41,330 nucleotides of DNA from a virus. Both the position numbers and the translations under genes were made by a program. The stretch covers positions 1 through 41,330 of the IMG/VR virus record IMGVR_UViG_3300049846_001501, one strand, 5' to 3'. The notes beneath the pieces were generated by a model. It worked only from the letters and a program-made list of their open reading frames with translations. It was not told where the DNA came from and did not search any database. This document shows positions 9,418-29,000 of the stretch, piece by piece. Numbering within the stretch: position 1 is the first letter of the stretch; each line of letters starts with the position of its first letter.

Positions 9418-10605
9418 ATGACACCACAACAAAGATTAGCAATGATTAAAGCTGCCGCCGAAAAAAGAAAAGCAGCACAAAATGTAAAAACACCTACTGG
9501 ATTACCAAAAGAGGATAGATTTCTTTTGAATAAACAAGTAGATGCGGCTTTAAAAGAATTAAAAACATACATTAGGTATTATCCTAGAAATCCAATCCCA
9601 GATATTGCTAATATATTTACCAAGAAATCAAAGGAACTTCCAGATCCTAGTTATGCTCAGACAAAGCAATTAGCATTAAATAATCTTGACCAATTAAAGA
9701 GAGAAATGTCAAGAATATCTGACCCAACCCATAAAGCAGAAATTGAAAACTTACGATCTGAATTAATTAATTTTGCTAATAGATTGACTGATATGCCAAT
9801 CAAATCAACAAATGTCTTTGCTAATAAACAAGAACCAAGTAGCGAAATTGACTCTAGAATTAAAAACTTAGAGAAGGAATTAGAAACAACAGATAAGTTA
9901 TATCAAAAAGCATTACATGATTACATGACTACTAAAAAAGCCCTTTCTTCGGAGAGAGGAATATCAGTAAAACATAAAGATGAAATGGAACAAAAATCAA
10001 AATTGGTTGATATCTATAAAAATAAAAAAGATGATATCGAAGAGAAAATCGCAGAATTACAAGCAGAAAAATCTGCTGACGAGACACCTGAAGATAACAC
10101 AGTTGAGCCAGTTGCTTCTACACCAAAGTCTGATGCTGAACAAGCCGCTGAGTGGCTAAAAGCACATGGAATGGATTTTGAGCCAGAAAGATATAAAGAA
10201 TCATTAAATGAAAGTAGCTCTGTTTTGTTAAAAACTATGGCTATTAAAACTGGTTTACCACAATCACAGCTTGAACAATTCTGGGAATTGGCTGTGAAAA
10301 AGAATGCATCTTCAAAAGTAAAAGGAGATTCAATTTTCTGGGGTGGTGTAATGAAAGAATTTCAAAACTTGATAGATAAAGTTGATATAGAGGAGACAAA
10401 AAATATCATGGAAACAAGAACACAATACAATAACTTCGCACAAGAATTTTTGAATTCAATTGCGGAAGATAACTATGTACAAGCCGAAAGTGCTTTCAAA
10501 AACATGGTTTCGCTAAGACTTGACTCAAATATTGCTGAGAAAGCAGAAAAATATTGTCAAGAAGTACTTTCAAAAGAAGCAAAAAAATTAGCAAACGATT
10601 ATTAA
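9418..10605 (+). CDS. Unknown helical protein between portal and prohead protease
   Basis: The protein has 395 residues behind AAGGA. It is highly charged and helical throughout. A Lys/Ala-rich N-terminus leads to a coiled coil at about 145-225, a Glu/Pro/Thr linker at about 220-240, and a compact C-terminal helical domain from about 240 (AAEWLKAHGMDFEP onward). In T4 the matching position holds the small prohead core proteins gp67 and gp68. This one is much longer and I cannot align it to either. A prohead core or scaffold accessory role is inferred from position and composition. Confidence 0.7.
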   Translation: MTPQQRLAMIKAAAEKRKAAQNVKTPTGLPKEDRFLLNKQVDAALKELKTYIRYYPRNPIPDIANIFTKKSKELPDPSYAQTKQLALNNLDQLKREMSRISDPTHKAEIENLRSELINFANRLTDMPIKSTNVFANKQEPSSEIDSRIKNLEKELETTDKLYQKALHDYMTTKKALSSERGISVKHKDEMEQKSKLVDIYKNKKDDIEEKIAELQAEKSADETPEDNTVEPVASTPKSDAEQAAEWLKAHGMDFEPERYKESLNESSSVLLKTMAIKTGLPQSQLEQFWELAVKKNASSKVKGDSIFWGGVMKEFQNLIDKVDIEETKNIMETRTQYNNFAQEFLNSIAEDNYVQAESAFKNMVSLRLDSNIAEKAEKYCQEVLSKEAKKLANDY

Positions 10606-23442: not shown

Positions 23443-24111
23443 ATGCCATTCCCATCAGATGTTGAATCAATGAATCTCTATAGCTTCCGTCAAACAATTC
23501 GTGACGTAAGCCGTCCATATCTCTTTATGATTGAGATGCCAAATATTGATGCAAATACAGCAAAAATGACCGCTTTCGCCCGTACTGCCAGTTTACCAAA
23601 GTATTCTGTCAGTACGATTGAAATCCCATTCCAGTCTCAGAAACTTCGTTTAGCTGGTCCAGCAAATATTGAAGGTACTTGGAGTGTTGAGTTCCTCTGC
23701 GATGAACTCCATGCTCTTCGTAACAGATTTATGAGTTGGACACAAACTGCTTACGATGTTCAGAGATTACAAGCTGGTGCTCCAGTAAGCTACAAGTACG
23801 ATCTTGCTAAAGTCGTTCAGTTAGCAAGAAATGGTGCCAGAATTGCTACTTATCAATTCGTGGGTCTTTTCCCAACCTCAGTCGGTGATATTCAATTATC
23901 ACACGAAGAAACTGGTTGGTCTAAGTTCCCAGTTGAATTTGCTTACGACTACTTCACCATTGATGCTTCCAATCCATTCGTCGCTAACGAATCTGCCTTC
24001 CAGATCGGTGCTACTGGTATTGGTGCTCAAACCGACCTCGGTGCTTTGGCTGGTTCTGTAGATATCAATACACAAACTGGAAATACAGCTACCAACGGTG
24101 GTGGGGCTTAA
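23443..24111 (+). CDS. gp19: Tail tube protein gp19
   Basis: The protein has 222 residues (T4 gp19 is 163), behind AGGAG. The conserved tube-fold order is visible: SRPYLFMIEMPNID, a SLPKYSVSTIEIPFQ strand, GTWSVEFLCD, then TYQFVGLFPTSVGDIQLSH and FAYDYFTID. The extra length is a Gly/Asn/Thr-rich C-terminal tail of about 45 residues (GAQTDLGALAG onward), probably flexible. Hexamers stack to form the inner tail tube under the sheath. Codons are of the highly expressed type, and a strong hairpin follows before the paralogue. Confidence 0.93.
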   Translation: MPFPSDVESMNLYSFRQTIRDVSRPYLFMIEMPNIDANTAKMTAFARTASLPKYSVSTIEIPFQSQKLRLAGPANIEGTWSVEFLCDELHALRNRFMSWTQTAYDVQRLQAGAPVSYKYDLAKVVQLARNGARIATYQFVGLFPTSVGDIQLSHEETGWSKFPVEFAYDYFTIDASNPFVANESAFQIGATGIGAQTDLGALAGSVDINTQTGNTATNGGGA

Positions 24112-24194: not shown

Positions 24195-24899
24195 ATGCCA
24201 TTTCCTAAAGATTTTGGTAACGATACAAGCATAAATCTTCACGGATTTAGAAATATAATAAACGATGTATCTCGTCCATATCTCTTTATGGTTGAAATGC
24301 CAAATATTGATACCGATGCAAGAAAACTAACAGCTTTTGCTGCGTCAACATCTATTCCAGCATACGAATTAAATGTTGATGAATTTGAATTCCAAGGGGC
24401 GAAAAGAAAGGTTGCCAATGGTGCATCTTTTTCTGATTGGAGTGTAGAGTTTGTAACAGACCAAGTATATTCACTAAGAAGTAAAATATTAGCTTGGATG
24501 TCACAAGCATTTGATCCCCACTTAGGCTCAAATGCTTCGCCACATTCATACAAATACGATGGTGTAAAGATTCATCAACTATCAAGAACTGGCGAAAAGG
24601 TTCAAACTTATCAATTTATAGGTTTGTTTCCAAAATCTTGTGGACAAATAGAATTAGGGCACGATAAAACAGATTATTCAAAATTTACAGTTACCTTTGC
24701 ATATGATTATTTTTCTGTAGACACTGGTAATTTACTTGAGAAAGGTATCCAATTAGCAACTGGTACAGATACTCAAAGTGGATTTAGTACCAGTGGTGTT
24801 GTTGGTAGAGCACCAAAGGCTGGACAACCACAGAATAATATTCAAGGCATATTTGATGTATATGGTGGTCAAACTAAACCAAATATACCACTCATATAA
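24195..24899 (+). CDS. Second tail-tube-like protein, paralogue of gp19
   Basis: The protein has 234 residues behind AAAGG. It follows gp19 segment by segment: MPFP start, SRPYLFMVEMPNID, SIPAYELNVDEFEFQ, DWSVEFVTD, TYQFIGLFPKSCGQIELGH, FAYDYFSVD. It has a different Pro/Gly-rich C-terminus. The two are clear duplicates. This copy uses ordinary AT-rich codons and lies beyond the hairpin, so it is probably made in smaller amounts. It may form a special ring at the tube end, as T4 gp48, gp54 or gp3 do, or be an alternative tube subunit. Confidence 0.85.
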   Translation: MPFPKDFGNDTSINLHGFRNIINDVSRPYLFMVEMPNIDTDARKLTAFAASTSIPAYELNVDEFEFQGAKRKVANGASFSDWSVEFVTDQVYSLRSKILAWMSQAFDPHLGSNASPHSYKYDGVKIHQLSRTGEKVQTYQFIGLFPKSCGQIELGHDKTDYSKFTVTFAYDYFSVDTGNLLEKGIQLATGTDTQSGFSTSGVVGRAPKAGQPQNNIQGIFDVYGGQTKPNIPLI

Positions 24900-24941: not shown

Positions 24942-25733
24942 ATGACTGATAGACCTACTTTTTCGTTGGTTGATTTAAAGAAAGCTTATGCTACCAAATC
25001 TTCCCCAGAAAATGCTGTTAAACTTTGTTATACACAAAAAGAAGTTTTCGTAAGACCTTTAAAAATTAAAGATAAAAAGGAAATTCTTAAAGCAATTGAA
25101 TCAAAAAACGAAACCATTATCAATAAGGCTTTAGATGAAGTTATTGAAAAATATGTCGAATATTCCGATGGTTCTAATTTTAATGTCAGTACTTTAACAT
25201 CACAAGAAAGATTCCAATTACTTGTTCATATTAGAGTATCTGCTGCTGGAACAACAGCAAAAATAGCCCACGAGTGTCCAAAATGCGGTCATGTCAATAA
25301 AGATATAACTTATGATTTGACAAGCATGTATGTTAAAAATTACACTAAACCAGAAACAGGCGACTCAATTTCTTTAGCAAATGGTAATATTAAAATAAAA
25401 TTAGGCCCAATGACTAGAGATAAAGAAATAGAAATAGAAAAATATGTTAAAAAAGCAAAAATAGCTACTACTGCTGAGAAAAATTTTGCTTTGATGGCTG
25501 GCGTTATTAAAAGCATAACTATGCTTCAAGATGATATTGAAAATGAAGTTAAGTTATCACTTGATGAAACCATTGATTTCTTTGAGAATCTTCCAGCTAT
25601 TGAATTAGATAAACTCCTTGATTACTTTAAGAGTACAGACTTCGGTGTTAAAATGCCATTTGAATTCAAATGTGAACAATGTAACCACGAAGGAGAGGAA
25701 GAGGTTAATATAGCTGTTTTTTTTATCAGCTAA
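24942..25733 (+). CDS. gp26: gp26-like hub protein / tape measure chaperone with zinc sites
   Basis: The protein has 263 residues (T4 gp26 is 208), behind AAGGAG. The layout resembles the T4 baseplate protein family: VFVRPLKIKDKKEI near the start, then LTSQERFQLLVHIRVSAAG. CPKC (112-115) and CEQC (244-247) probably bind one zinc. In T4, gp26 helps hub and tape-measure assembly. The gene ends GTT TTT TTT ATC AGC TAA, a run of eight T (25717-25724). A -1 slip there would bypass the stop and continue into the next ORF. It also ends in a TAATG overlap with it. Confidence 0.72.
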   Translation: MTDRPTFSLVDLKKAYATKSSPENAVKLCYTQKEVFVRPLKIKDKKEILKAIESKNETIINKALDEVIEKYVEYSDGSNFNVSTLTSQERFQLLVHIRVSAAGTTAKIAHECPKCGHVNKDITYDLTSMYVKNYTKPETGDSISLANGNIKIKLGPMTRDKEIEIEKYVKKAKIATTAEKNFALMAGVIKSITMLQDDIENEVKLSLDETIDFFENLPAIELDKLLDYFKSTDFGVKMPFEFKCEQCNHEGEEEVNIAVFFIS

Positions 25734-26011
25734 TGTTGATGGACACATGCTATAAAGCTGTCCTCAACGAATGTATTGAATTGGTGGTATGGGCTGCTCC
25801 TTGTATAAATATATTGGAGATAGATGAAATTGATCTCCATGAATTTGATGTTTATAGGAAAATATTTAAGGAGAAGTTTGATGCCGAATCTAAAAGTAAG
25901 CAAGAGTTTATTAAAAACACATTTGAGTTTGCAAGAAAATGTGTTGAAACTATCTGTAAGACAATTGCTGGAGCTTTTGGCACCAAAACCAATACAAGTA
26001 ACCTAAAGTAA
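25733..26011 (+). CDS. Small ORF before the tape measure; possible frameshift extension of gp26
   Basis: The protein has 92 residues if started at the TAATG overlap. It is helical and acidic with several Cys. It lies in the -1 frame of the gp26-like gene and stays open back through the T8 run, so slippage would give one protein of about 356 residues. A short protein plus its -1 extension just before the tape measure is the arrangement of tail assembly chaperones in many phages (lambda G/GT, P2 E/E'). The alternative is a separate protein translated by coupling. A TATAAATA at 25804-25811 lies inside this ORF and is probably coding. Confidence 0.65.
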   Translation: MLMDTCYKAVLNECIELVVWAAPCINILEIDEIDLHEFDVYRKIFKEKFDAESKSKQEFIKNTFEFARKCVETICKTIAGAFGTKTNTSNLK

Positions 26012-26015
26012 TATT

Positions 26016-29000
26016 ATGGCAGCTATATCCTCTAATGTAAACGATCTACTCAAAAAAACAGACATGGCAAAAGATCTTGCTGAGTTGGAGAGAATTCGTA
26101 AACTCATGGAGGATTTGAGTAAAAAACAAGATAAGCTCCCAGACGAATTTGAAAAAAATCTAGAAGAACTTAAAATTGAAATAGAAATTCTTCACAAAAG
26201 ATCTTCAGTATATGTTCGTGAACAGCTTGAAAAAATGATTATTCCGTTTGTTGCGGCAAACGAAGCGGTAAAAGATAATTTAATTGAAGCTTTTGATAAT
26301 ATTACATCATCCTTTAAGGATCTTGGTAAAGATTTTTTAGAAAACAGTAAACAAACACAAAAAGAAATTGAAGATAAATTAAATAAAGTTGGTGATTTTA
26401 TTGGTGAAAAAGTAAATGTTGCTAGTCAATTCATCAATAAAAATACTTTAGGTCAAGTTAAACATATGCTTAACTTCTTCGAAAGTAAATTATCCGTCAT
26501 TTCAACAAATTTATCTTCTCTTACTGGTGCTGTGAAAAATGGGTTCAGTAAACTAAAAAGTATACTATTTCATCCAATGGAAGTTTTAAAAAGTTTACCA
26601 CAGAAAATATTATCTATTTTCTCGTTTGTTATAAACAAAATAAAACAAGGAATTATATGGGCAATTAGAAGCACATACACATTAATTGTTGGAACTATAA
26701 AATATGCATTGCTCTACACCGTAAAAATATTAAAAGGAATAACATGGGTTGTTGGTAAGGTTTTTCAAGGGTTATATTTTGTTACTAAATTTTTAGTATC
26801 TTTAGTATTTAAAGCCGTTGTGAAAACACTATCTTTCATAATGGGAGTATTGTGGGGAGCGGTTAAGACGATTTCCAAATATGTTATGATTGTTCTTTAT
26901 GAATCATTGAAATTTGTAGCAAAAACTGTTTTTGGTGTTGGTAAATTTGTCATTAAAACAATAATAACAGCAGTAATAACCGTAATAGCATCTGCTCTTG
27001 CTCCAATTATATTAATGATGGCTGCTATATTCTTAGTTGGTTGGTTAATGAGCGAAAAATTCAAAGAATATAAACAAGATTTTGCTGATTTCTTTGGTGT
27101 CGGTAAAGAAGCAAATAAAGGTAAAACTGGGTTTGGTAAGTTTGGTGATTGGATCTTTAGTATATATGAGAAAATAAAAGATTTTATAATGGGTACAGCT
27201 AAAGAAACTTATGAAAAATACTCAAAAGCCTTCAACGAAACTAAAGAAACTTTCGGTTCGTATTCATCAGAATTAGTTGAAAAGATGAAAGGTTCAAATA
27301 AAGAATTAAATGAAGGAATTTCGAATGTTTTAAATTCATCAAAAGATACACTTGATGCATTTGCAAAGAAAGCTGGTGGTGGTCTTTTTAGAGAAAAAAC
27401 ACCAGAAGAAAAAGCAGTTGATAAAGCAAGAGTTGCTCTTTCTAATGCTAAAAATAATTTAGAAATAATAAGATTAGGGGGAAGTGATCAATCCGAAGAT
27501 GATGCTATGGGAATGATTCAAGTAGCTAACAAATCTTTAGAGCAAGCGGTAGAAAATTTAAATAATGTTAGTCTTGAAGAACCAAAAGAAGAAGAACCTA
27601 TATGGGTTCGTGTTTGGACTATTTTAAAAGAAAAATGGAATGAATATGTTTGGGAGGGTGGACTTGCTTTAGGACCAAAGCTTCAACCAATAATTGATTA
27701 TGTTGATGATGTATTTAAAGATATTAAAGCAGTTGGGTTCTGGCAATATTTAGTTAATAAAATGGACGAAGGCTTGAAAAGCTTTAGGGATGCAATATTT
27801 CCAGAATATAAAGATAAATCGTGGACAGAAATTTTTTCTATTTTTTATGAAGACTTAAAACAAAAATTCTTAACATTCATTTACGATCCCATCATAAGTT
27901 TCTTAAAAACTATGTGGGATGGCATTAGTAAGTTTTATATATCTACAATCGATACTATTAAAAATGCTATCATGCCTATTATAAAATATTTTGAAAAACA
28001 AGGCTGGGCTGATAAAGGCACGTCTTCATCTTTTAGAGAAGCTATGGTTACTGCAAAAGCACCAGCTATGGAAATAGGGAATAAATTAAATGATATTATC
28101 AGTGAAAGAAATTTATCTAAACAACAAACACAAGATGCTGATAAATTTGCATTATTACAAAAAAATGAAAAAGATCCTTCATCGTTGACGGATGACGAAA
28201 AAGTAAAAGTGGCTGAATATTCTAAAAGTTCAAAATTTTTTGAATACGAAGGCACTTCAAAAAGACTAAAGACATCAGAAGAATTTAACAAATCTCAAGA
28301 AGAGAGAGCCAATACATCTAGAGAAATGCCCGTTGAATTGGGTGGAATTGTAAATGAACTTATAAAATCTAGAATAATGCAGTCTGTTTTGTTTGATGTG
28401 AATAATAACCCTTCTTTTAAAAATATGGTTATCGCTAGTGAACCAGAAGTTGCTGCATATGTTGCATATGCATACAGTAATATATGGAATAAACATAATT
28501 TCAAATCAAATAGCGGTCAATCCCTTTTTACTGATATTCCGTATGTTGGGGATGATGTATCTGGTCGATATTTGGGTTTATATTCTTATTTAAGTGGGAA
28601 CGAAGAGAAACTTAAAGATTCTAATAGCATTCTTTTTAAATATAGAAACCTATTAGGAAAAGAAGATTACGATTCTTTAAAAACATTAAATAGCAAAACA
28701 TTTGATTATGGTCGTAATATACAAATGTTATTAGACGATAGTACAAATCAACGAGATATACCGATATTAGAAGCTGGTTTGAGACATGCATCTATAGATG
28801 GCTTTTTTAAAGAAAATTATGCAGATGCCCTTGATGATCTTAACACTTTAACAGCAGCAATGTTATTATTACCCGCTGCGGGTCCAGTTGGTGGGACCGC
28901 TGGGAGACTTGCTATGGCTGGATTCAAGAAATTTGGTGTCCAAGGAGTTTTAGCTTTTATGAAGGGTCTTGGTTGGGCTACCGAAAAGGGAGGTAAAGCA

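Follow-up and report, generated by a model that had tools for sequence, protein, structure and literature searches.

A Probable Programmed −1 Frameshift in a gp26-Family Gene Relates T4 gp26 and gp51 to the Lambda G/GT Tail Assembly Chaperones

Introduction

How are the two overlapping open reading frames (ORFs) that precede the putative tape measure gene in the virus record IMGVR_UViG_3300049846_001501 expressed: as two separate proteins, or as one short protein and a longer product fused by a change of frame? The window, meaning the whole stretch of 41,330 nucleotides that was analyzed (positions 1 to 41,330 of this IMG/VR record), carries a gp26-family gene that ends in a run of eight T residues (T8). 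A preliminary description of this DNA had proposed that the next ORF lies in the −1 frame and is open back through the T run, and the sequence and its frames agree. The comparisons presented below indicate that a programmed −1 ribosomal frameshift very probably gives rise to two forms of the tail assembly chaperone.

The lambda-type frameshift of the tail chaperone is said to have been described by Levin in 1993 and by Xu, Hendrix and Duda in 2004, and the E/E′ frameshift of P2 was reportedly described by Christie in 2002. The G/GT frameshift class itself is long established. The tail-chaperone frameshift has been called widely conserved in long-tailed phages "except T4" (PMC5009743). Vladimirov, Gautam and Davidson are reported to have identified the chaperone genes of T4-like phages and to have proposed a route that does not use frameshifting (Virology 2022, 566:9-15), and, according to PMC10885494, frameshifting is avoided in some T4-like phages, which have one gene for the short form and another for the fused form. 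The suggestion in the preliminary description that such a frameshift has not been described in T4-type phages needs qualifying, as a paper that cites Vladimirov 2022 reports from it that T4-like TAC-N genes have poly-T −1 signals (PMC12846349). Going by such citing accounts, the principle may therefore be partly described already, and Vladimirov 2022 probably covers part of the T4-type frameshift finding. Neither the match between gp51 and the frameshift product class from end to end nor the mirror pattern (a slippery site with one PF12322 gene, or none with two) was found stated elsewhere.

Layout of the Junction

The gp26-family gene (Table 1) matches PF12322 with an E-value of 4.9e-25 and 88.9 bits, above the Pfam cut-off of 24.5, and PHROG 150 ("baseplate hub") with an E-value of 2e-25. 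It is preceded by a good Shine-Dalgarno sequence, AAGGAG, and its product carries zinc-ribbon-like Cys pairs. An AlphaFold model of the short form has a pLDDT of 86.5; among the best 50 Foldseek matches listed, the highest probability, 0.20, belongs to HK97 gp13 (2ob9), which aligns with a TM-score of 0.39 by target length and is not significant (E = 1.2). A structure search with a model of the −1 tail returned nothing meaningful, and a PDB sequence search with the gp26 profile gave chance hits only.

The 3′ end of the gene reads GTT TTT TTT ATC AGC TAA, with the TAA at 25731-25733. The open stretch of the −1 frame runs from 25709 to 26011, and one base within TAATG belongs to both ORFs. Translation through a −1 slip yields 356 residues and the junction peptide VFFYQLMLM, in which the shift falls between VFF and YQLMLM; this confirms both the fused length of about 356 residues and the junction given in the preliminary description. 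The T8 is the sole run of at least eight T residues in the whole window, and across all ORFs of the window TTT TTT encodes just 9 of 35 Phe-Phe pairs. The long ORF that begins at 26016 and fits a tape measure protein matches PHROG 167 and 4197 weakly, with E-values of 1.1e-4 and 6.4e-4.

Table 1. Features of the chaperone junction, in coordinates of the window.
Feature	Position	Strand	Remarks
gp26-family gene (PF12322, T4_baseplate), 263 aa, short chaperone form	24942..25733	+	Pfam and PHROG matches
AGAGG, Shine-Dalgarno-like, possible frameshift stimulator	25700..25704	+	13 nt upstream of heptamer
Overlap in which 0 frame and −1 frame are both open	25709..25733	+	stops at 25706 (−1) and 25731 (0)
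T8 run	25717..25724	+	slippery heptamer T_TTT_TTT at 25718-25724, in phase for a −1 shift
TAATG, where stop and start overlap; possible site of re-initiation	25731..25735	+	not kept in all relatives
−1 frame ORF, putative C-terminal portion of the long form (92 aa, preceded by Y-Q-L)	25733..26011	+	alone a 92-aa ORF
Predicted RNA hairpin, candidate stimulator	25735..25768	+	begins 10 nt past heptamer
Putative tape measure protein, 1132 aa	26016..29414	+	position, length, weak PHROG matches

Two other loci of the window were recorded. The adjacent ORFs at 23443-24111 and 24195-24899 closely resemble each other at the N-terminus (MPFP...DVSRPYLFM.EMPNI); the second has matches to tail tube families, and the pair are probably tandem tail-tube genes. 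An in-frame A_AAA_AAA at 10581-10587 lies about 20 nt upstream of the stop of the ORF at 9418-10605, and is probably due to chance; the −1 frame beyond it is not open for 50 codons.

Conservation in Close Relatives

The close set comprises the window and fifteen further distinct sequences obtained from IMG/VR scans (16 in total), in which gp26 identity to the window falls from 83% to 35%. All 16 have T_TTT_TTT at the same place together with an open −1 frame, and this frame runs 76-98 codons past the stop in the close relatives, one of them being cut by the contig end. The 0-frame stop is TAA in some sequences and TGA in others, and most changes in the −1 codons lying over it are synonymous (CTA/TTA/TTG for Leu; CAG/CAA for Gln). 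When synonymous constraint was followed along the whole gp26 gene, the peak fell on codons 259-263, with an observed/expected value of 2.18 versus 1.10 overall. Selection acts on both frames at the junction, and the slippery site and the open alternative frame are kept while the proteins diverge. A remoter set of three sequences (L048, L049 and L051), only 21-22% identical, carries T_TTT_TTC and a 74-codon −1 extension. No relative was found in the bacterial genome contigs scanned, and for this reason no host is assigned.

Cultured Phages From T4-Related Groups

The same layout is found in nine cultured phages. Four belong to the Kyanoviridae (S-MbCM25, S-PM2, C48C1 and BUCT-ZZ01), and the others are Sinorhizobium phage phiM19, Cronobacter phage LPCS28, Stenotrophomonas phage Bhz51, Agrobacterium phage Atu_ph04 and Vibrio phage R11Z (Schizotequatrovirus, KVP40 type). 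T_TTT_TTY lies within a few codons of the gp26 stop in every one of them, and the −1 extension measures 54-61 codons. In phiM19, Bhz51 and Atu_ph04 the run persists at 50-54% GC, where TTT accounts for 12-30% of Phe codons. A naive chance of the T run, calculated from the codon usage of each locus with shared ancestry ignored, is about 1e-8 for 10 representatives and, by the same calculation and with the same omission, about 1e-8 for the nine cultured phages. None of the nine records joins the two parts; the tail has no annotation in some and its own gene in others, named "gp51" in S-PM2 and "baseplate hub subunit assembly catalyst" in phiM19.

Together, the 16 close and nine cultured sequences form a −1 class of 25 distinct sequences. 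Aligned across this class, the T run and the open −1 frame are both kept, as the preliminary description had expected of relatives. The opposite pattern that it had raised, a broken T run with both ORFs retained in the −1 arrangement or an intervening stop, occurs in none of the 25 and was likewise not seen in the remoter set of L048, L049 and L051. In T4 and its relatives, which have a separate gp51 gene, the T run is interrupted, in keeping with the idea of a frameshift.

Relationship to T4 gp26 and gp51

T4 gp26 and gp51 are paralogues, as seen in a pairwise blastp comparison (E = 1.7e-6) and in a profile alignment of 190 columns (E = 7.3e-20), and gp51 consists of a gp26-like domain with an extra C-terminal part. 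An alignment of the T4 gp51 family with the fused profile of the nine cultured phages covers 244 columns and spans the junction (E = 1.1e-22); the −1 tails of these phages alone match the gp51 tail with an E-value of 6.5e-12, compared with 0.44 and 0.56 for reversed controls. The fused profile of the window clade aligns in turn with that of the cultured phages over 292 columns across the junction (E = 9e-25). Taken alone, the tail of the window clade is, by these alignments, too divergent to match gp51: its match to the gp51 tail is poor (E = 0.46), and that to the −1 tails of the cultured phages is weak (E = 0.0053, probability 6.8). Judged by profile alignment, the frameshift product class is homologous to gp51.

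T4 gp26 corresponds to the short form, and T4 gp51 corresponds to the fused product class over its whole length. T4 differs in that its long form comes from a separate, divergently oriented gene 51, and its gene 26 ends in GAG TTC TTT GAG, without a slippery site, unlike the window. T_TTT_TTY is absent from the gp26 end in the separate-gp51 phages T4, Kpn6N, AB1I1T, 44RR, G5211, CGG4-1 and EC-F2. PF12322 has two matches in T4 and one in each of 11 frameshift-type records searched; R11Z, phiM19 and S-PM2 are among these as whole records, and the other eight are contigs that may be incomplete. The alignment of the fused products with gp51, together with the lack of a slippery site in T4, argues strongly for a tail assembly chaperone frameshift of the G/GT type that would produce a gp51-like long form.

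The arrangement of the two genes varies among T4 relatives. In Enterobacter phage EC-F2 (L081, 901-2194), gp51 and the gp26-like gene stand in tandem with an overlap of a few bases, whereas the T4 pair is divergent, and the tandem arrangement is possibly nearer to the duplication event. In Acinetobacter phage ZZ1 (HQ698922.4, 119126-119874), the match to T4 gp51 is split in two, which suggests either a disrupted frame or a sequencing error in gene 51.

Alternatives to Ribosomal Frameshifting

Translational coupling would have ribosomes stop at the TAA and restart at the overlapping ATG 25733, producing a separate 92-aa protein and no fusion. Re-initiation of this kind is allowed by a TRATG overlap (TAATG or TGATG) in 14 of the 16 close sequences, the window included, and the annotators of S-PM2, phiM19, Bhz51 and R11Z list the downstream ORF as a gene of its own. 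However, conservation in the −1 frame extends over the Y-Q-L that precedes the ATG: the peptide FFY, upstream of or at the possible restart, is present in 16/16 and FFYQLM in 13/16, unlike the residues directly after the ATG, which are variable in the close sequences. ATG 25733 also lacks a Shine-Dalgarno sequence, in contrast to most genes of the window. No ATG lies near the junction in the close relatives L045 and L046 or in the remoter L048, L032, L033 and L067, yet the slippery site stays, and frameshifting is therefore the obvious route in these several relatives. T4 gp51, moreover, has the same kind of extension fused to a gp26-like domain. Coupling is thus considered improbable.

Transcriptional slippage, in which RNA polymerase would add or drop a U within the T8 and thereby place part of the mRNA in the fused frame, is judged very improbable. 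T runs of about this length can cause polymerase slippage, and the T8 is the longest T run of the window. The conserved feature, however, is a codon-phased heptamer, T_TTT_TTY. L045, L046 and L009 have T7, and the cyanophages, L067, L068 and L070 mostly have T7 with a final C in the heptamer; these runs are below the usual length for polymerase slippage. Conservation of a codon-phased heptamer in which the uninterrupted T run goes down to six fits ribosomal rather than transcriptional slippage.

That an AT-rich gene end merely happens to carry a T run ahead of an overlapping gene is scarcely credible: although the window has a GC content of 34%, a slippery-type heptamer of some kind lies no more than 45 nt from the end in six of its other ORFs and several other genes are open in −1 past the stop because the next gene overlaps or uses that frame, the heptamer is kept in every member of the −1 class, including the phages of 50-54% GC, and the peak of synonymous constraint falls exactly on it.

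Candidate Stimulators and Proposed Mechanism

Two elements flanking the heptamer may stimulate a ribosomal frameshift. The GGACA/TGTCC hairpin placed at 25741-25763 in the preliminary description is present, but it forms only the inner part of a predicted stem at 25735-25768 (GUUGA.GGACA.../UGUCCUCAAC); the full stem begins 10 nt, not about 16 nt, past the heptamer, which revises the view that it lies a little far downstream. The 60 nt that start 3 nt past the heptamer are stabler than 90% of stretches from the same locus in 11 of the 16 close sequences, and in remoter groups the hairpin in the post-heptamer stretch is absent or ordinary. RNAalifold over 14 sequences of the close clade found no consensus structure. 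Pairs with both sides changed relative to the commonest numbered zero when the window clade was aligned alone and two when the L026/L040 sister clade was aligned alone. As the covariation counts are small and a consensus structure was not found, the hairpin is only a candidate. The other candidate is the upstream AGAGG, which arises from GAG at codon 254; GAG is used in 13 of the 15 relatives with Glu at this position, the highest share among well-conserved Glu columns.

We infer the slipping itself, its rate, its stimulators and the chaperone role along the following lines. The majority of ribosomes would terminate at the TAA and release the 263-aa gp26-like short form. A minority would slip on T_TTT_TTT into the −1 frame, possibly stimulated by AGAGG and the downstream hairpin, and produce a 356-aa long form comprising 261 residues of the short form and 95 encoded in the −1 frame. 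The long form would correspond to T4 gp51, and the short form to T4 gp26. If they act like lambda gpG/gpGT, the two would together coat the product of the neighboring tape measure gene and recruit tail-tube subunits.

Comparison With Known Systems

The window shares with lambda gpG/gpGT a short chaperone and a −1 extended form, specified by overlapping ORFs directly before the tape measure gene. Unlike lambda G, the short form of the window belongs to the PF12322 gp26 family and is not recognizably G-like in sequence, and its slip site is T_TTT_TTT. Another example is found in the Vandenendeviridae/Andersonviridae, represented by phage Adele, in which the short chaperone gene ends with a conserved poly-T −1 signal and, as in the cultured T4-related phages, the extension is unannotated or annotated as a separate gene (PMC12846349). 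This group differs in its GTTTTT motif, and the likeness to the window considered here is one of signal layout. Bacillus phage 0305phi8-36 has, close to its tape measure gene, a short and a long form related to G/GT, but these come from two separate genes with no frameshift, in parallel to T4 (PMC2147016).

Evolution of the gp26 Superfamily

The balance tips slightly toward an ancestor of the whole PF12322 (gp26) superfamily that already made the long chaperone by frameshifting, with T4 gene 51 as a derived, frozen copy of the frameshift product. The gene would then have been duplicated, one copy keeping the fused frame, after which the slippery site of gene 26 decayed, a course of events that is narrowly favored. 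Confidence in this ancestral state is moderate because the direction of change is read from the breadth of the frameshift layout.

If true, the ancestral state would explain why T4 is the exception to the frameshift rule, and the small ORFs, unannotated or separately annotated, that stand before many T4-type tape measure genes would be frameshift tails. The frameshift layout is retained by a deep branch of T4-related phages and by the nine cultured phages, and with it they would produce a long form resembling gp51. In this way gp26 and gp51, long described only as hub chaperones, would become linked to lambda G/GT, providing a testable account of the passage from a single frameshifted gene to two genes. 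The same reading would correct the annotation of many phages whose gene lists omit the frameshift tail or show it as a gene of its own.

A second branch of PF12322 has a C-terminal extension that is open in the +1 (or −2) frame, and several of its members carry a TTT TTT motif. This branch includes SP-15 (L031, 2875-3814), Listeria phage LIS04, Streptococcus phage GXN1, Microcystis phage Mel-JY01, Flavobacterium phage immuto, a 484-kb phage and L018 (1038-1881); its remaining loci are L072 (1318-2398), L073 (1408-2371), L074 (1438-2455), L075 (1438-2383) and L076 (1501-2446). The direction of the shift thus seems to have switched within the PF12322 family, between this branch and the −1 class.
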